A stretch of DNA of 58,692 nt from a virus. Below the pieces are notes generated by a model. That model did no database searches and had not been told where the DNA came from. It saw only the letters and a list, made by a program, of their open reading frames with translations. Below, one piece after another: positions 13,149 through 56,230 of the stretch. How positions within the stretch are numbered: position 1 is the first letter of the stretch; every line of letters begins with the position of its first letter. Location: the IMG/VR virus record IMGVR_UViG_3300030102_006279, positions 1 to 58,692 of that record; one strand, 5' to 3'. A program made the position numbers and the translations under genes.

Positions 13149-13829
13149 CTATGTGTTGACAATAGGAGCATTACTAGCTTCCCAGTTATAAAAATGCGTA
13201 ATACAGTATCTACCGTGGCCAAATTTTATGTCATCTTTAGACTTGACCTCTGTTACTTCATGTTCTAAGTAGCTTGGAAAAAACACCATTCTATTATTAA
13301 TACACTCTATTGTAGCCTTTGCCGCACTTAATTTTAAGTTACCACCAAAAAACTGTTTTGGCTCTTTATACATCCAGATCAAGCAAGTAAATTGTACGCT
13401 ATCGCAATGAGGTTTATAGTATTTAGACTTATCATAATAACTAATAAAAGTTGAATCTACATTAGTATTTATAAAATTATTATGGTGTAAAGGCATAGCA
13501 TCTAAAACAATATCGTGAAAAGCTTTACTTGTTTGTTTGTACATGGCTCTTAAAATTGGTGAAATAATTCTACCTTTTTGTGTGTAATAATCCCACACAT
13601 AAAATCTAAAAGCGTTAGATTTTGCTACACCCTTTAAATTTTTTGCAACGACTGTATTTTCTGCTTTTTCATAAATAGGTTGAGTTGCATACATGTCAAG
13701 CTCATGCCATACAGCGTTTATTTCTTCTTGTGTATACCAATTATCAATAACTAAATAAGGAGCTTCTTTTTTTTGATTGTTTATTTTTATATCCCAATCT
13801 TGTTTTACTTCTTTTACTACTATAGTCAT
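13149..13829 (-). CDS. 2-oxoglutarate/Fe(II)-dependent oxygenase (226 aa)
   Basis: Prolyl-4-hydroxylase-like double-stranded beta-helix. The iron ligands are visible as YKPHCDS (H141, D143) and YLEHEVTEV (H190), with the 2OG-binding Arg in GRYCI (R207), all at normal spacing. N-terminal helices include WYTQEEINAVWHEL. Such enzymes hydroxylate protein side chains or nucleobases; the target is unknown. It sits in the tail-fibre cluster next to a cupin and the Gly-rich adhesin-like protein, so hydroxylation of a virion protein is a reasonable but unproved idea. Confidence 0.85.
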   Translation of the reverse strand: MTIVVKEVKQDWDIKINNQKKEAPYLVIDNWYTQEEINAVWHELDMYATQPIYEKAENTVVAKNLKGVAKSNAFRFYVWDYYTQKGRIISPILRAMYKQTSKAFHDIVLDAMPLHHNNFINTNVDSTFISYYDKSKYYKPHCDSVQFTCLIWMYKEPKQFFGGNLKLSAAKATIECINNRMVFFPSYLEHEVTEVKSKDDIKFGHGRYCITHFYNWEASNAPIVNT

Positions 13830-42177: not shown

Positions 42178-42415
42178 ACACCCACTGTATATTGTGGTAT
42201 GGAAAGACCATACCGGAGATGCAGGTTGGAAGAGTGAAGAAGAAGTCAAAAAAGAAAAATACATACTGGCTTACAGTATTGGTTACCTAGTACATCAAGA
42301 CAAAGAATGTGTAAAATTATGTAATACTTACACCTCTGATGACGCTCATGGTGGCTTAGATCTAATTCTTAAATGCTGTATTGTTGAAATGTATGAAATT
42401 GAAATACTAGACTAA
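42152..42415 (+). CDS. Small conserved-type protein (87 aa)
   Basis: YIVVWKDHTGDAGWKSEEEV and ILAYSIGYLVHQDKECVKL have the look of a widespread phage and bacterial small family (vxWxDHxGDxGWxSxEE). Contains CCIVEMYEIEIL at the end. Start at 42152 or an ATG at 42164 are both possible. Its stop and the TerS stop are convergent, overlapping by 4 nt. Confidence 0.62.
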   Translation: MCLKMKTSKHPLYIVVWKDHTGDAGWKSEEEVKKEKYILAYSIGYLVHQDKECVKLCNTYTSDDAHGGLDLILKCCIVEMYEIEILD

Positions 42416-42909
42416 TCATTTTCACCCTGAACAATTATAGTGTTGGCACCAATCTTTTGTTCTAATTCTTGAAGTCTTTGTTCAAGCTGGTCTCTACTCA
42501 TTCCCTCTAAAGTATTGTGTGTTATTTCTTTTTTATCTACATATTGACCTGCCAGCTGTCCTGATCTAAATTCAGCGTTAATAGCAGCAGTGTATTGACC
42601 TTTTCTTTCACTACCATCTCTAAGTCTTTCCAATATCTTATAGCGTCTTAACTTATCTTTTTCGTATTTTGCTTGTTCCTCACTTAATCGCATCTCAAGA
42701 TAGCGACATACATGTGGGTTTATTTCAGGATTTGTTAGTCTACTACCCAAAACCATAGCTGAATTTTCTGTTTTATAACTATATCCAGCTTTAATTACAG
42801 CATCTTTTTTAGATATTACACCCCAGTCTTCAACTAAAGCATCTACAAATGCTTTCTGTTTATCGGTTAAATCAGCTGTTGTTTTTAATGTATTTGCTTT
42901 ACTTGGCAC
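42412..42909 (-). CDS. terS: Terminase small subunit (165 aa)
   Basis: TDKQKAFVDALVEDWGVISKKDAVIKAGYSYKTENSAMVLGSRLTNPEINPHV is the HTH region of the Terminase_2 family (LTxKQxxFVxEYLxxxNAxxAAxxAGYS). Then a helical oligomerisation part with RRYKILERLRDG and a C-terminal coiled coil. Separated from terL by about 4.4 kb that contains the composite repeats. Would recognise the packaging site; the site itself is unknown. Confidence 0.85.
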   Translation of the reverse strand: MPSKANTLKTTADLTDKQKAFVDALVEDWGVISKKDAVIKAGYSYKTENSAMVLGSRLTNPEINPHVCRYLEMRLSEEQAKYEKDKLRRYKILERLRDGSERKGQYTAAINAEFRSGQLAGQYVDKKEITHNTLEGMSRDQLEQRLQELEQKIGANTIIVQGEND

Positions 42910-42983
42910 CTATGCACTCCCTTAGAAACATTTTTTTAAAAAAATAATCGCATAGTCGCCTCCTCTGTATTCCATAGTTTTTA

Positions 42984-42995
42984 AGGAATATTCCT
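42984..42995. repeat. 12-bp palindrome AGGAATATTCCT
   Basis: Perfect palindrome in the 190-nt intergenic region between TerS and the fusion nuclease. With the 11-bp inverted repeat at 43059-43094 it could be an operator or a protein-binding site such as a packaging or regulatory element. Sequence is common enough by chance that it is reported as weak. Confidence 0.3.
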
Positions 42996-43058
42996 AGTAA
43001 GCTATTGTCTATAATCCTATTCATACAGTGTTTTCCATACTTTCCTTAATTCCTGGTA

Positions 43059-43094
43059 CTATACAAACATATTTTTTAAAAAGTGTTTGTATAG
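43059..43094. repeat. 11-bp inverted repeat with AT-rich loop
   Basis: CTATACAAACA and TGTTTGTATAG are exact reverse complements separated by 14 nt (TATTTTTTAAAAAG). It lies just after the fusion nuclease stop and before TerS in transcription order. Candidate operator, attachment-like site for the integrase-type domain upstream, or weak terminator. Confidence 0.5.
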
Positions 43095-43100
43095 AGGTGC

Positions 43101-43733
43101 TTATGAGTAAATTTCACTTTTTTGGAACCTCATTAGCTCAACTAAACGATTATCAGTAATATTATACACAATCGCTTGTGTAATTAATTCTTTTATGTAC
43201 CCATCTTGGTCCGAAAAGTACTCAGTTCCTGATTGTCGGTACCTAGAATACAAATCATGAAGCTTATTTTCATTGACTTTATTTGTTTCTGGCCGTACGC
43301 CGATGAGCCGTAGTCCTTTGGTTGACAGCACCAAATCATTAATGCGACTTAGCCAGTTGGTACTGTGACCGATCTTAATAAAACCCTCTAGGTTCTCAAT
43401 GAAATAAATGTGACTGGCAGTCCTTGTAATCTCAAACAAATCATCATAATCCATACCTGCATTGGCTTTAATTTTCAGTTCTGCCGCTTTGAGCCGTGCT
43501 TCACTGATTGACATGAGCGGATAGAAACCAAATACCTTTGACTTATGTACATTTTTAGCTCGGTAATCAAACGCAAAAGAATGAGTGCCTTTTTTACTTG
43601 CATTACAAAGTAAATTAGGTTCTTTTGTGTCACGCACATAGACGCTTCGTTTCAGGCCAAACTTAGGTTTCCAATTTTTGAGAAACTCATCCGTCAACTC
43701 TACATAGTGACTTTTGTCTGTTCTCCTCGCCAT
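43101..43733 (-). CDS. Integrase arm-domain (DUF4102-like)/T5orf172 GIY-YIG fusion (210 aa)
   Basis: Residues ~10-96 match the arm-type DNA-binding N-terminus of tyrosine integrases (DUF4102): LTDEFLKNWKP, SFAFDYRAK, FGFYPLMSISEARLKAAELK, NAGMD. Residues ~108-178 match T5orf172/MUG113 GIY-YIG nucleases: HIYFIENLEG, FIKIGHS, LSRINDL (R130) and NENKLHDLYSRYRQSG (E155), then TEYFS. The catalytic Arg and Glu are present. The tyrosine recombinase catalytic domain is absent. ATG at 43733 preferred to an upstream TTG at 43769. Confidence 0.8.
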   Translation of the reverse strand: MARRTDKSHYVELTDEFLKNWKPKFGLKRSVYVRDTKEPNLLCNASKKGTHSFAFDYRAKNVHKSKVFGFYPLMSISEARLKAAELKIKANAGMDYDDLFEITRTASHIYFIENLEGFIKIGHSTNWLSRINDLVLSTKGLRLIGVRPETNKVNENKLHDLYSRYRQSGTEYFSDQDGYIKELITQAIVYNITDNRLVELMRFQKSEIYS

Positions 43734-43765: not shown

Positions 43766-44236
43766 TCAAGTTAAAACGGACAAAAACACAGTGCTCACGT
43801 ACTCAGTAGAGGTCAAAAACACATTTTCACGCATTTGTTTGACTCTTTTTCTCAAAAACCGTTGTTTTTCTTTATCAGGTAAGTTTTTCATGCGATTGTA
43901 CATGCGATCATATCGCAACCACATGAGCTGCCGTTTCGTAAACCGAATGTTCTTCTCTCTTAATGCTCTGGTATAAGCTTCTTTAACCAATATTGGATCT
44001 AATTCAGCACACATACAAACGTTTTTAAAATCATCACACATGGAAATAATCCAATTATGTGCTGCTAACTTTTTTAATGAATTTTTACGGTCGGAGTGAG
44101 TGACAAACGCATCTTCAAATGCATTTAAAATAACACAACGCCAAAGTTTCGCTTCAGGTTTTAAATCGTCCTGCTCAACTATGTTTCGCGCCAAGTTAAT
44201 TCCAATGGCTCTAAGTAAATCTGTAGATGCTTTCAT
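43766..44236 (-). CDS. Conserved phage protein (156 aa)
   Basis: LWRCVILNAFEDAF and NWIISMCDDFKNVCMCAELDPILVKEAYTRAL match a phage family with helical core and an LWxxVxxxAxxDA pattern, often found in regulatory regions. C-terminus is rich in Arg/Lys (TKRQLMWLRYDRMYNRMKNL). Its ATG overlaps the stop of the 76-aa gene. Function unknown. Confidence 0.7.
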   Translation of the reverse strand: MKASTDLLRAIGINLARNIVEQDDLKPEAKLWRCVILNAFEDAFVTHSDRKNSLKKLAAHNWIISMCDDFKNVCMCAELDPILVKEAYTRALREKNIRFTKRQLMWLRYDRMYNRMKNLPDKEKQRFLRKRVKQMRENVFLTSTEYVSTVFLSVLT

Positions 44237-47445: not shown

Positions 47446-49054
47446 TCTTTTTCTCCTGTATGTAAACGAAATAATCTTCTCCAATAGGATAGTTATATCT
47501 GTAATCTGTTGATAGGATGTGCAAAGTGTCCTTTGCTCGTGTCACCCCTGTATAAAAAACTCTTCTCTCGTCTGATCGCTCATCTATATTTTTGTGTGCA
47601 TACGATGACGGATAGTTACCCTTAGAGCATAACAATACATTGTTTGCCTCTCCTCCTTTCACTGAATGTATAGTGTCAATAATAATGTCAGGTTCAGCAT
47701 CTAATGATGACTGACCATAACGCTGTAAAATTCTTTTAAAATATAAAACCTGTGGTTCTTTAAAATTTCTTTTTAAAATATCAAACCAAGGTAAGAACTG
47801 ATCCATGGGTTTTAAATCAAGACCACAGTAATCCACCAAGTCTTCAAACGATAGTTCTGTAAAGTTATCTGTCTTTAACCAAAATTTTTGCGTACGAAAG
47901 TCAGGATGTTTTAATTCTCTAATGTACCGATACATGTGTTCAGCTTCTTTGTTGGTAATTGTTTTTTTGTTGCTAAGTTTGGTCCAAGTTTTTATCGCAT
48001 CCCATTGTCTACGATCAAAGGATTTATTGCCTTTGTTATCTGAAAAATATAACCCTGAATTTTTTGCAAAACCTCTAAGTTCATTTACCACTGTGTTAAC
48101 TCTTCCAAGTATGTACCAAGTGCCAGGTATTTCTCCAATCGGTATCTCATTAAAATTTAAGTAACGTTTGACAATACCTTCTTTATGTTCATGTTCATAT
48201 TCTTTTTCTACGCTATCTAGTATACCACTTCTTATAACTTGTGAAAAATCATGTATTTCTTTGCCAAACCTTCTAGTTTTTCTTAAAATAACTTTGCGAC
48301 CAGGAAAATAAGTTGTAAAGTATTTTGGATCTGCTCCGTTCCAACGATAGATGCCTTGATCATCATCACCCGCTAAATAAATACGTTCCACATTGTCTAC
48401 CATTTTATAAATGACTGACCATTGTAGTGGTGTAAAGTCTTGTGCTTCGTCTAATATTAAAAGTTTTAATGGTGGAAAGTTGACTTCATCAATCGCTCTC
48501 ATAATCATGTCAGTAAAATCAATAAACGAATCTTTTTTGTAATGTTCATAAGTCGCAATCTTTCTAAAGTAAACATCTAACGAATCTTTTTGATAAGACT
48601 CTAGTTTCCAAACTAATTCTGGGTCAAGCATCATGTTACGTGCTTTGTCGTACACACCAAGCGACCAGTCTTTATACATGTAATTGTCGTCTGCTAATCT
48701 TTCATCAGAACTTTTTAATATGTTTGCGTTTAATGCGTAATCCAACATACAGTTTTTAGGATCAAATACTTCTTCATCAAAGTATTGCCTACAGTATTTA
48801 TGTAATGTTTTAAAACGAGTAAAGTCTTCTACCTTAAACTGCGGAAAAGCTTTTATGGCTCTTTCAATTGCTGTGTTTACTGCTTTATTAGTAAACGATA
48901 TAAATGCAATCTCGTTAGGGTGCACTCCCTTGTTAAGGTAACCTTTTAAAACCCTTTCTATCAAAGTGTAAGTCTTACCTGTACCTGGTGGTCCAAATAT
49001 TTTTATAGTCTTCCTATGTAGACTTTTGGTTTTCTGGTTTTCTAAATTTGTCAT
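47438..49054 (-). CDS. UvrD/PcrA-like SF1A helicase (538 aa)
   Basis: Walker A GPPGTGKTYT near residue 21, motif Ia AFISFTNKAV, motif II LLILDEAQDFTPLQW, motif III GDDDQGIYRWNGA, motif V TIHSVKGGEA and motif VI FYTGVTRAKDTLHIL. Shorter than UvrD (about 720 aa) so it lacks parts of 1B/2B. Coupled to the primase upstream and the polymerase downstream, forming the replication unit. Confidence 0.9.
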   Translation of the reverse strand: MTNLENQKTKSLHRKTIKIFGPPGTGKTYTLIERVLKGYLNKGVHPNEIAFISFTNKAVNTAIERAIKAFPQFKVEDFTRFKTLHKYCRQYFDEEVFDPKNCMLDYALNANILKSSDERLADDNYMYKDWSLGVYDKARNMMLDPELVWKLESYQKDSLDVYFRKIATYEHYKKDSFIDFTDMIMRAIDEVNFPPLKLLILDEAQDFTPLQWSVIYKMVDNVERIYLAGDDDQGIYRWNGADPKYFTTYFPGRKVILRKTRRFGKEIHDFSQVIRSGILDSVEKEYEHEHKEGIVKRYLNFNEIPIGEIPGTWYILGRVNTVVNELRGFAKNSGLYFSDNKGNKSFDRRQWDAIKTWTKLSNKKTITNKEAEHMYRYIRELKHPDFRTQKFWLKTDNFTELSFEDLVDYCGLDLKPMDQFLPWFDILKRNFKEPQVLYFKRILQRYGQSSLDAEPDIIIDTIHSVKGGEANNVLLCSKGNYPSSYAHKNIDERSDERRVFYTGVTRAKDTLHILSTDYRYNYPIGEDYFVYIQEKKNG

Positions 49055-50606
49055 GATAAGCTTCGTCCATTTCGCTAATGGTGTCTTTTATTTTTGGTTT
49101 TGGTTTTCTATAACTTACAAACTCAGGCATCTGCACCGACCAAATATTTCTTTTATCAGATTTTGGCACATCAGGATGACCAGTCAAATAATCAGAATGT
49201 ACACACCCTAACATTTTCAAAGCTTGTGATGCACTTTTGAATAGACCATTGTTCTTTTTTGCTAAAAACTTTTCTAAGGTTTCTTTTTTGAAATAGCACA
49301 TGTTTGTTTTAGAATCTATCACAACATAGTTGTCTTTTAATTTATCAAACTTATCTTGTTCTATGTGCGCCTCAAAGAAATCTTTCAGTAATCCATACTT
49401 CTTCTCTTCAACGGTGTCTTTATATAAATGTCTTTTATCTTCTATTGCACTTTCTACTAATCTTTGCATCAGTAAGTCAAATGGGTTTGGACCTTTTCTA
49501 GATGGTTTCAGTTCCATCCAATATATTTGTTCGTATGCAAGTCTAACCTTAAATGACTTTTGATCTTTAATATCTTCAGGAGTTACCGTTATCTCTTTAC
49601 CTTTAAACTTAAAGGTATACTCCATTGTTTTAATACCTTTGACAAAGGTCACATCTTCAAAATCATCAATGATCTCTGGTATTGCCGCACCTATACCAAG
49701 TCGTCTTTGCTGACATAACTCTTTATTGCAAATAGGTTGTAACTCAGGGTGTTTTGGAGGACATTGATAATCATAATTACCCTTATGTACAGACTTACAA
49801 AGATTTATAACTTCGTTCTGCCCTAATGGATTATGAAATATTTGATTGTTTCTTTGTATACCAATCTCTTGTATCTGTTGTATGCTCAATGCAGAATTCT
49901 TTTTACCTTCTAAGACCAAAATATTAAATAAATAATTATTTCTATTGTTACCTGCCCAACCTTCTTGAATGAGTTTTTGAGCACATGGCGGGTAATGTCG
50001 CCACTCTGATTCAAGATCATATTCTTGTACCTTTAAATTATAAAAATCCTCTGGTGCTATTTTCTTCTGTTCTGCAAGTTTTAAAAATCTTCCTACAAGT
50101 AACGCGTTATTGTTATCATCATACGCATGTTCCATGGTGGCTTCTTGATCATTATATGGCATGTTTAACATTTTGTTACATGGAAATACTTCCTGAGCTT
50201 GAAAATATTCATTGTTTATTTTTGATAGAACTTTAGATACTTTTTTTGTATCAGCCCAGTCTGTAAAGAATACAAAAATATGTAATCCACCTGATTTTGA
50301 TTTAACAGCAATTAAAGGGAGATTAAATTTTTTTATAATATCTACATACTTTTTTGATGAGAATGATGTGTAACTGTGTGGGTCAACGTCAATACAACCC
50401 CACAGACATCTACCGTCCAGCTCAGGCTTAAGGCCTATACGGATCTTCCCGTCTAAGTGTTCTTGCCATAACTCTGGTGTCAGTGGTTCGTGTATCGTTT
50501 GATACTCTGTCCCTTTCTTACCCCTCTCGTCGTCCTTGCCGGTGAGCAAGGACTTGAGGTAACGGGTGTTGTCACCCGCAAAAAGTGTAAACAACTTTTC
50601 GTGCAT
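49014..50606 (-). CDS. Archaeo-eukaryotic-type (AEP) primase (530 aa)
   Basis: Contains CIDVD (D73, D75) with a downstream SKSGGLHIFVF (S103, H109) about 30 residues later, the AEP catalytic motifs. The C-terminal half includes a Cys pattern CPPKHPELQPICNKELC that may bind zinc, and an alpha-helical C-terminus. No canonical DnaG-type zinc/TOPRIM. It resembles primase-polymerases found in TOTE-type systems and phages. The primase likely serves the adjacent helicase and polymerase. Confidence 0.82.
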   Translation of the reverse strand: MHEKLFTLFAGDNTRYLKSLLTGKDDERGKKGTEYQTIHEPLTPELWQEHLDGKIRIGLKPELDGRCLWGCIDVDPHSYTSFSSKKYVDIIKKFNLPLIAVKSKSGGLHIFVFFTDWADTKKVSKVLSKINNEYFQAQEVFPCNKMLNMPYNDQEATMEHAYDDNNNALLVGRFLKLAEQKKIAPEDFYNLKVQEYDLESEWRHYPPCAQKLIQEGWAGNNRNNYLFNILVLEGKKNSALSIQQIQEIGIQRNNQIFHNPLGQNEVINLCKSVHKGNYDYQCPPKHPELQPICNKELCQQRRLGIGAAIPEIIDDFEDVTFVKGIKTMEYTFKFKGKEITVTPEDIKDQKSFKVRLAYEQIYWMELKPSRKGPNPFDLLMQRLVESAIEDKRHLYKDTVEEKKYGLLKDFFEAHIEQDKFDKLKDNYVVIDSKTNMCYFKKETLEKFLAKKNNGLFKSASQALKMLGCVHSDYLTGHPDVPKSDKRNIWSVQMPEFVSYRKPKPKIKDTISEMDEAYHDKFRKPENQKST

Positions 50607-53521: not shown

Positions 53522-53973
53522 GAATAGATAGAATTTGGGCTATGCCCTCACACAAAACATTTACGATTAAACCCATAAAAGAGTTGATTCAAGATGAGAT
53601 AGGGGAAGATTATTTAGATCCTTTTCCTTATCCATATGAACAGGATGCAATAGATTACCTTAAAACAATACCTGATTTGTCAGAGGATTATTGTGTTTTT
53701 GATCCACCTTACTCACAACGACAGCTTAAAGAGATGTACCATTCTAATGGTATATCCTTAGAGCATCCAATGAACAATAGCTATTGGGCAAAATGTAGAA
53801 AAGAGATAGGTAGGATCATAAGACCAGGTGGCAAAGTAATATCTTTTGGTTGGAATAGCTCTGGTATAGGAAAAAAGTATAGCTTTGAAATTAGTCGTAT
53901 ATTATTAGTTGCGCATGGAAGTCAACATAATGACACCATATGCACAGTAGAAGTTAAACAGGGTTTATTTTAA
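53518..53973 (+). CDS. DPPY-type methyltransferase-like protein (151 aa)
   Basis: DYCVFDPPYSQRQLKEMY has the catalytic DPPY motif of N6-adenine/N4-cytosine methyltransferases, and RPGGKVISFGW follows as in the AdoMet fold. The protein is short and has no clear FxGxG AdoMet-binding loop at the N-terminus; a DPFPYP stretch may be a partial equivalent. It could be a minimal phage enzyme or an inactive form. ATG overlaps the SNF2-type stop. Tail end overlaps the convergent nuclease gene by 20 bp. Confidence 0.62.
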   Translation: MRIDRIWAMPSHKTFTIKPIKELIQDEIGEDYLDPFPYPYEQDAIDYLKTIPDLSEDYCVFDPPYSQRQLKEMYHSNGISLEHPMNNSYWAKCRKEIGRIIRPGGKVISFGWNSSGIGKKYSFEISRILLVAHGSQHNDTICTVEVKQGLF

Positions 53974-54670
53974 AATAATCATCAACTTTTTTTAACCATA
54001 AGTCCTCATACTTTTTTAGCATGTTTTTATCCATAAAAAATTCTTGAAAATACAAATCTTTGGTGCAAATAAGAACAACACCTTGTTCGATACTTCCATA
54101 CTGTTTTTTATGAGCTAGACTGTACGCTCCTATTTGATAAAAATAATCTTCTATCCATTCTTTTCTTTTTGGTTTATTACTTTGTTTAAAATCACCAATG
54201 GTGGGTCTATCTTTGTACCGACAAATTAAATCAGCTGAACCTGCCCAGCGATCTTCATAGGCTAAACTTACTTCAGTTCCATAAACTTCAGATAAGTCAC
54301 CTAAGTTATTAACAATGGTATGCGCCATCATTCTAGGTAGGTGTCCGCTTTTTCTTAAATTTAAATAGCCAACCCCATTCATATACTGTTCAAGAACATA
54401 GTGCATTTCAGTTCCTCTCGTAGCCGCCTGGGTCGTGATGCGTTGAGCCTCTTGATGTCCGATCCTATTTCTCCACTTATCTAAAGCTTGTTTTTTCTCT
54501 TCAGATTGTGTGCCAGATAAAATGGTTGTTACACTTGGAACTTTATTACCGTCTACATTGTAGGTTCGTGGCCCGTCAGTGTCATTACGGGTGTAGTGCC
54601 TATAATCGTAAGGGCGTGTTTTTTTAAAACCAGTTATCGTAAAACTATTTTCATTTTTAATTATTTTCAT
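53954..54670 (-). CDS. RecB-like PD-(D/E)xK exonuclease (238 aa)
   Basis: VPSVTTILSGT, ATRGTEMHYVLEQYM and the core AGSADLICRYKDRPTIGDFKQSN (D...D-x-K) followed by YFYQIGAYSLAHK reproduce the RecB/Cas4/MGME-type nuclease order. The catalytic Asp and Lys are present. Functions in recombination, end processing or degrading host DNA. Coupled by 14 bp with the UDP-glucose-dehydrogenase-like gene. Confidence 0.82.
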   Translation of the reverse strand: MKIIKNENSFTITGFKKTRPYDYRHYTRNDTDGPRTYNVDGNKVPSVTTILSGTQSEEKKQALDKWRNRIGHQEAQRITTQAATRGTEMHYVLEQYMNGVGYLNLRKSGHLPRMMAHTIVNNLGDLSEVYGTEVSLAYEDRWAGSADLICRYKDRPTIGDFKQSNKPKRKEWIEDYFYQIGAYSLAHKKQYGSIEQGVVLICTKDLYFQEFFMDKNMLKKYEDLWLKKVDDYFKINPV

Positions 54671-55409
54671 TACGAATTTTATTATTATACTTGATAACAG
54701 AGTTTATTATATTTAAGTCTAAGCCATAATACAAAGCGGATAAATATAAAGCAGCGATATCTTTAGGTAGACACTCGCCACCAAAACCACGCTCATCAGA
54801 TACATAGCTATGACTCGGCCCAATACGAGGATCTGCGGTTACATGTTTTCTAATGTTATCAAAATTTAAACCAGATACATGGCAGTAATCATATAGTTGA
54901 TTGAAAAAAGCAACCTTAGTTGCAAGAAAAGCATTTCTAAAATATTTAATCGTAATTAAATCTTTGGGGTCAGTTTCTATAATATGTGGGCAATTTAGAA
55001 AAACTTCTTTGAATATTTTAGTCCAAAATTTTACTTCTTTACCACCAAGCATTATAACTGTTTGCTCTCTTAAATCTTCTAAAGCATTATCCGATCTTAA
55101 AAATTCAGGTGAAAAAGCAATCTTTCTATCAAATCTATCGTTAATGTAAGACCAGCCCTGTAAAGATATAGTGCTTTTAATCAAGATAGGTACATCTGGA
55201 CAGTCTTTAAGAACTTCTGTGACATGTATCATGTTACAAGCGCCGGCTAGTCCTTTTGGTGTAGGCACACAAACAATCACTGCATCAATGGTGTCGTCAA
55301 ATTTTCTGTCATAATGCTTAGGGTCTATAATGACAACTTCATGAAAATTTTGAAATAAAGCAGCATGTGCTCTACCGACAACTCCGTAACCTGCTATGGC
55401 TATCCTCAT
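54657..55409 (-). CDS. Truncated UDP-glucose/GDP-mannose dehydrogenase-like protein (250 aa)
   Basis: ATG at 55409 overlaps the upstream stop as ATGA. Rossmann motif IAGYGVVGRAHAALF, VCVPTPKG, KSTI, FSPEFLR and the catalytic-Cys stretch GFGGECLPKD are all present. The usual ~390-450-residue enzyme continues into a C-terminal UDP-binding domain. This one ends soon after the Cys region, so that domain is missing. May act with host enzyme subunits or on a different substrate. A sugar-nucleotide oxidation role is inferred. Confidence 0.8.
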   Translation of the reverse strand: MRIAIAGYGVVGRAHAALFQNFHEVVIIDPKHYDRKFDDTIDAVIVCVPTPKGLAGACNMIHVTEVLKDCPDVPILIKSTISLQGWSYINDRFDRKIAFSPEFLRSDNALEDLREQTVIMLGGKEVKFWTKIFKEVFLNCPHIIETDPKDLITIKYFRNAFLATKVAFFNQLYDYCHVSGLNFDNIRKHVTADPRIGPSHSYVSDERGFGGECLPKDIAALYLSALYYGLDLNIINSVIKYNNKIRNENN

Positions 55410-56230
55410 AGTCCACACATTCCTTCACATTCTTGATCCATGTTCTCGTCTTCAAATAAATCTAAATTAGGTTGCCCTCTTTCTGCACCTGTCCTTAAAT
55501 CTACATCTTGCATGGGTACACAAGACTTATGTAAAAAAACTTGATCATCGTTTTTCGTGCCAACTCTTATGGCATTGTCAAAATCAATAACACTCTGCCA
55601 TTCATCAGGATAGTTATCCCTTAAATTCTGCCACTCTTTGTTAGTTTTATAAGGACAAAAAGTGCATGCGCTTCTTGGCGGTGTTTTGCTATAATTTTTT
55701 TCAAACCAATCAATACAGCTTTGACGACTCATATTTTTTTCAACTAATGGATATTTATTTTCAATCCATTTGATTTGATTTTCTTTCATTCTACCTTGTT
55801 CGTCAGTGGATATGCCCATCCACAATTCAACATGAGTTCCTTTTTTTCTTTTTTCACCTTTTGCAAGTCCTAACATTTTTCTAATTTGTTGGTGCACAGG
55901 TTGTATTTTATAGTTTGAAGTGCATTGTCTTTTTAACAAACCTTTTTTACCTGTGGTTCCTGATACGGTGAAAACAGGTATGGTAAGAAAGTTCCAACGG
56001 CCTCTGCCATGTGCTGAGTCTATGGTATCTTGTCTTAGATCACCGTAACTAACGATGTGTATTGGGTAGGATACTTGTGTTTGCAGCCATTCAAACCACT
56101 CATAAACTTCTTGTGGCTCTGCTTTAGTATCTGCAAAGATAGCAGCGTCTACCATAGGTAGCTCACCTTTTTCTATCATTAAAGCTAAGGCACTACTTTG
56201 TACACCAGCGCCCAGTGATAATATTTTCAT
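55406..56230 (-). CDS. PAPS reductase-like PP-loop protein (274 aa)
   Basis: PP-loop SLGAGVQSSALAL at residues 5-17, then AIFADTKAEPQEVYEWFEWL and the Cys-containing KRQCTSNYKIQPV and SACTFCPYKTNKEW. C-terminus CEGMCGL adds Cys. This is a phage family related to phosphoadenosine phosphosulfate reductase and to DndC-like thiolation ATPases. The exact chemistry is unknown; possible DNA or RNA thiolation or sulfur metabolism. ATGA overlap with the next gene. Confidence 0.8.
   Translation of the reverse strand: MKILSLGAGVQSSALALMIEKGELPMVDAAIFADTKAEPQEVYEWFEWLQTQVSYPIHIVSYGDLRQDTIDSAHGRGRWNFLTIPVFTVSGTTGKKGLLKRQCTSNYKIQPVHQQIRKMLGLAKGEKRKKGTHVELWMGISTDEQGRMKENQIKWIENKYPLVEKNMSRQSCIDWFEKNYSKTPPRSACTFCPYKTNKEWQNLRDNYPDEWQSVIDFDNAIRVGTKNDDQVFLHKSCVPMQDVDLRTGAERGQPNLDLFEDENMDQECEGMCGL

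Follow-up and report, generated by a model that had tools for sequence, protein, structure and literature searches.

The stretch of viral DNA analysed here (58,692 nucleotides, referred to throughout as the window) holds a 210-residue open reading frame on its minus strand, which opens with an ATG at 43733 and ends with a stop codon at 43101. A sequence-only reading had described this frame as a fusion of an integrase arm-type domain with a T5orf172 GIY-YIG nuclease; the ORF itself stands as it was drawn, and we refer to it as ArmGIY. In the window, as in most other carriers, ArmGIY lies between a conserved 156-residue ORF and the gene for the terminase small subunit (TerS). The features of the locus are as follows.

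43766 to 44236, minus strand: ORF of 156 residues, the conserved upstream neighbour, with homologues across the phage clade
43101 to 43733, minus strand: ArmGIY, the integrase arm-type and T5orf172 GIY-YIG fusion (ORF, Pfam, 41 homologous contigs, purifying selection)
43449 to 43697, minus strand: Arm-DNA-bind_3 domain, residues 13-95 (PF13356 above cut-off, predicted fold)
43188 to 43412, minus strand: T5orf172 domain of the GIY-YIG superfamily, residues 108-182 (PF10544, at the cut-off here and 32 bits in L157)
43404 to 43406, minus strand: codon of Tyr110, the GIY-motif tyrosine, invariant in the family
43344 to 43346, minus strand: codon of Arg130, the predicted catalytic arginine, invariant in the family
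43269 to 43271, minus strand: codon of Glu155, the predicted metal-binding glutamate, invariant in the family
About 42910 to 43100, no strand assigned: noncoding element between ArmGIY and TerS, conserved clade-wide, which holds an inverted repeat
42412 to 42909, minus strand: terminase small subunit, the downstream neighbour (PF03592, 34.5 bits)

The window also encodes a large terminase, a portal, a head protein and a tail fibre. Compared with Pelagibacter phage HTVC023P, its DNA polymerase shows 70% identity and its large terminase 72%, from which a SAR11-type host appears likely; the closest cultured relatives of the carrier phages have their hosts in one of the most abundant marine bacterial groups. 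Elsewhere in the window are a primase with an AEP-TOTE match at 49014-50606 (PF22548, 36 bits), beside a UvrD-like helicase and a family A polymerase, and auxiliary genes at 53954-56230 (PAPS-reductase-like, UDP-glucose dehydrogenase-like and exonuclease families) and at 13149-13829 (2OG-Fe(II) oxygenase family).

A Pfam search of each half, proposed as a check in the sequence-only reading, places both at or above the gathering cut-offs. Residues 13-95 match PF13356 at 31.3 bits against a cut-off of 27 (E 2.2e-7). The predicted structure of the protein (mean pLDDT 88) has an N-terminal fold that matches the arm-type domains 3jtz, 3ju0 and 3rmp of P4-like integrases with Z of 10.2-10.6, the value for 3jtz being 10.6. 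Profile score and fold (Z about 10.5) alike thus bear out the arm-type domain claimed for this half. ArmGIY shares fold and Pfam family with the P4-like arm domains, at 22-26% identity, and differs from P4-like integrases in lacking a core-binding or catalytic recombinase domain. The missing catalytic domain had been noticed beforehand, and its absence extends beyond ArmGIY: the tyrosine recombinase domain PF00589 finds no match in ArmGIY, elsewhere in the window record or in any of 37 related ones. Because none of these 38 records, many of them fragments, holds a tyrosine recombinase, the arm has no integrase of its own phage to serve. Among the 30 full-length family members, the arm residues Ser46, Gly49, His51-Ser52, His63-Lys64-Ser65, Val67 and Gly69 are held in common, and the motif SKKGxHS...VHKSKVFG is strongly conserved family-wide, which suggests that all members may read a similar DNA site. 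Phages, plasmids and viral contigs yielded no integrase whose arm domain is close to this one, the best match to an isolate phage reaching 40% over 50 residues.

For the C-terminal half, residues 108-182 barely pass PF10544, at 20.2 bits against a gathering cut-off of 20 (E 8.6e-4), and MUG113 gives 19 bits on the window protein, under its cut-off of 22.3. Of the T5orf172/MUG113 match proposed earlier, the first part is therefore upheld and the second is not. T5orf172 scores in relatives reach 32.0 bits in L157 (E 1.8e-7), 29.8 in L143 and 23.7 in L117; L115 and L145 fall slightly under the cut-off, and L100 and L160 are unlisted at E 0.01. The predicted T5orf172 assignment is thin from the window sequence alone and firm in relatives. 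Inspection of the alignment reveals that the active-site residues Tyr110, Arg130 and Glu155 are invariant across full-length members, where Arg130 and Glu155 occupy the positions first given for them and are kept in every family member reaching those columns. Lys120-Ile-Gly122, Ser124, Glu171 and Phe173 are likewise common to the family. Lys120 takes the position of the second GIY-YIG tyrosine, a replacement that is usual for the T5orf172 family. Modelled alone, the C-terminal half reaches a pLDDT of 89, and GIY-YIG structures head its list of fold matches, albeit weakly (Z 3.7-5.1: 1ywl 5.1, 7wme 4.5, Slx1 4.3, 1zg2 4.1, I-TevI 3.7). Foldseek with the GIY half alone returned no significant match.

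ArmGIY is a genuine fusion of arm-type and T5orf172 domains. The full-length architecture, which the sequence-only reading had suggested seeking elsewhere, recurs in 41 further viral contigs with 33 distinct sequences, so that neither chance nor misassembly accounts for it; dN/dS of 0.07-0.3 indicates purifying selection, and an assembly error joining two genes, named at the outset as a possible refutation, is therefore ruled out. Scanning viral contigs with a nine-member alignment gave 28 loci, and an arm-only scan gave 41, where every new one examined proved once more to join arm and GIY. Of the 37 loci from a GIY-only scan, all except L197 lie in contigs with a fusion already found. Invariance and correlation were analysed with the 33 distinct proteins, 30 of them full-length, and the IMG/VR contigs compared are mostly fragments. 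Pairwise identities of the arm and GIY halves correlate (r 0.85), so both halves travel together, and a recent chimera with domain shuffling within the family is ruled out. In the comparison with L099, the arm half evolves faster than the GIY half. The plasmids and isolate phages searched hold no full-length relative, and pattern scans of 84,980 prokaryotic species genomes, which reach fairly close relatives only, gave no confirmed one. ArmGIY matches no known defence-gene family in PADLOC, and NCBIfam and Rfam searches returned nothing useful. The copy in L113 (3512-4069) has its frame broken near the C-terminus, with the lost part continuing in another frame; either decay or a sequencing error may explain it.

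Carriage of ArmGIY varies among related phages. The gene is absent from HTVC023P, HTVC027P and 023Pt_psg01, and also from L008, which is sister to the window clade in the TerS tree and in which only ~95 bp of noncoding DNA separates the upstream ORF from the conserved element. In phages lacking ArmGIY, the slot upstream of TerS can hold a small ORF of about 107 residues with SET-domain-like motifs, as judged by eye (L011 5678-5998; L013 1419-1739; L029 6936-7271; L038 14250-14639). The surroundings of the gene change as well: L115, L116, L124 and L160-L162 have the upstream operon in inverted orientation with respect to ArmGIY, and other ORFs replace the TerS side in L100 and L104. In one TerS clade, 21 of 22 members carry ArmGIY in a sample biased towards carriers, and its presence and absence on the TerS tree need two changes, carriers being over-sampled there because they had been searched for. 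Judged from these neighbourhoods, ArmGIY is an accessory gene.

Comparison of the window with L106 reveals a replaced allele. Neighbouring genes and noncoding DNA are 76-94% identical between the two, except for a 32-base stub just upstream of ArmGIY at 72%, whereas the ArmGIY ORF is 60-64% identical; identity falls at the start codon and jumps to 97% right past the stop. L106 shares its allele type with L005-L007. When the window is set against L099, the second half of ArmGIY and the 190 bp that follow show 95-98% identity, compared with 76% for the 156-residue ORF. Gene conversion or recombination with ArmGIY at its centre would be compatible with both patterns, and the allele swap in L106 is consistent with homing rather than proof of it.

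ArmGIY also occupies a second locus. In L134, L142, L143, L145, L157, L164 and L165, it comes after lysis and late genes and is followed by a convergent module of RecB-like exonuclease and helicase (gene names assigned by eye). In L198-L201 and L206 it lies between the RecB-like exonuclease and a late gene, and in L202 the same two flanking genes abut with no ArmGIY between them. The corresponding slot of L203 (1471-2580) holds an ORF that resembles a C5 cytosine methyltransferase by eye. Presence and absence at the same site in relatives are thus seen both at the TerS locus (L008) and at the second locus (L202, L203). All second-locus proteins form one clade in the family tree, so a single shift between loci suffices.

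We put at roughly 58% the probability that ArmGIY is a free-standing, homing-type gene for a site-specific DNA endonuclease of lytic marine phages, and rank this ahead of a weapon akin to Odn of Vibrio phage ICP1, a DNA-binding regulator and a packaging cofactor, in that order. The beta-sheet arm domain would dock on a specific DNA sequence, and the C-terminal domain would nick or cut nearby by means of Tyr110, Arg130, Glu155 and a divalent metal. With the gene-bearing phage as template, repair of the break would then carry the gene and the DNA on either side over to a co-infecting relative. Homing ranks first because the modular plan, accessory slots, terminase neighbourhood and exchange boundaries are common to ArmGIY and known T5orf172 genes. 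The sequence-only reading had offered homing among several roles, and the accessory slot, the allele swap, the two loci and the position at module boundaries render it plausible; the terminus-like cut that it also offered is not supported. Against homing, ArmGIY has moved between loci only once, which together with its 21/22 carriage makes it calmer than a typical homing gene. The low fold scores of the nuclease half also count against it, as does the lysine in place of the second GIY-YIG tyrosine, usual though this is for T5orf172 proteins.

Homing-type T5orf172 genes of phages are typically accessory and occur at genetic-exchange boundaries, in 35% of neighbourhoods they adjoin terminase genes, and their nuclease is paired with an N- or C-terminal DNA-binding domain, which is a CapR, DUF723 or DUF4397 zinc finger or RepA_N (PMC10448857). 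The T5orf172 genes of ICP1 and its relatives resemble ArmGIY in joining a nuclease to a separate DNA-binding domain and in being accessory, often beside the terminase and at exchange boundaries. In contrast, the specificity module of ArmGIY is of the integrase arm type, not a zinc finger or RepA_N. The main text of that survey makes no mention of an arm domain (PMC10448857), and the combination of arm-type and T5orf172 domains was not found in the open-licence papers searched; as far as the searched text shows, the arm-type specificity module is new to the T5orf172 list. The homing endonucleases I-TevI and HNH-AP2 likewise join a small nuclease domain to a separate DNA-binding domain, and AP2 and arm domains have similar small beta-sheet folds (6sy0, Z 5.5), but ArmGIY differs in domain order and DNA-binding fold and has no intron. 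T5orf172 nucleases were already known to switch DNA-binding domains for new targets, be it for self-spread or for satellite killing. To their targeting modules, the integrase arm adds a fold whose way of reading DNA is well understood and whose structures have been solved. With the arm conserved, a simple selection for bound DNA should reveal the target, and the empty slots of L008 and L202 are ready substrates for testing cleavage.

A second, unlikely reading holds that a satellite or temperate competitor supplied the arm from its integrase; the nuclease would cut the attP arm-type sites of that element, thereby protecting the lytic phage. The precedent is Odn (Gp88) of ICP1, which cuts satellite origins and whose DNA-binding domain is 42% identical to RepA_N of the target satellite, a parasite's DNA-binding domain having been swapped onto T5orf172 (PMC8263062). 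Like ArmGIY, Odn places an N-terminal DNA-binding domain of mobile-element type before a C-terminal T5orf172 domain in a lytic phage; the two differ in that Odn has a related RepA_N in its target satellite, whereas ArmGIY has no known donor or target. Stable maintenance of ArmGIY under selection agrees with such a role, as does the lack of a tyrosine recombinase in the carriers searched, which leaves the arm no attP of its own phage to serve. However, no integrase in the phages, plasmids and viral contigs searched carries a close arm (40% at best among isolate phages), the arm-only scan yielded fusions only, and the arm is conserved family-wide where an arms race would predict diversification. 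That ArmGIY is specifically an att-site-directed weapon against elements integrating into the same host, be they satellites or temperate rivals, parallel to Odn and independent of it, we regard as less likely still.

In four comparisons, the noncoding element between ArmGIY and TerS is more conserved than the flanking genes, with 86-98% identity where TerS has 80-90%. The inverted repeat reported beforehand at 43059-43094 exists, with 17-nt arms that are 88% complementary and a stem stable on folding (z -2.9); a pattern scan for a canonical terminator gave no match. The element is present clade-wide with or without ArmGIY, phages lacking the gene carry an equivalent AT-rich repeat upstream of TerS, and ArmGIY occurs without the element in L100, L104 and at the second locus. 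In the window, L004 and L005, arm alleles of different type adjoin near-identical repeats. Since its element occurs with or without ArmGIY, the repeat is not supported as the binding site that had been proposed; it is kept where the gene is missing, differing arm alleles accompany the same variant, and co-variation with arm alleles lends no support to it as a cognate site.

A regulatory role, in which the arm would dock on phage DNA (for example this element) with the T5orf172 half as a non-cutting partner, can point to I-TevI, a GIY-YIG homing enzyme that is also a repressor (PMC10448857), and to the adjacency of gene and element in TerS-locus phages. The catalytic positions are nevertheless invariant, and element and gene each occur without the other, which leaves this role more doubtful than either form of weapon. 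Although HNH proteins adjoin some terminases, and ArmGIY adjoins TerS and the conserved noncoding region in most carriers, a nuclease that helps terminase act on a cos or pac site located upstream of TerS is the least probable role and a very improbable one, for ArmGIY is dispensable (L008, HTVC023P and others without it keep TerS and element) and in L100, L104 and at the second locus it is not beside this TerS.

The noncoding element upstream of TerS is itself a candidate origin, pac/cos site or divergent promoter. It was examined for TAGGAA/TTCCTA in the window, at 42910-43106, and upstream of TerS in L008, L027, L095, L115, L117, L124 and L126. In many members of the HTVC023P-type clade, the element holds five to seven copies whose spacing is nearly fixed, and inverted repeats of about 20-30 bp, facing outward, mark its limits. 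In the window clade, TAGGAA is down to one or two copies.
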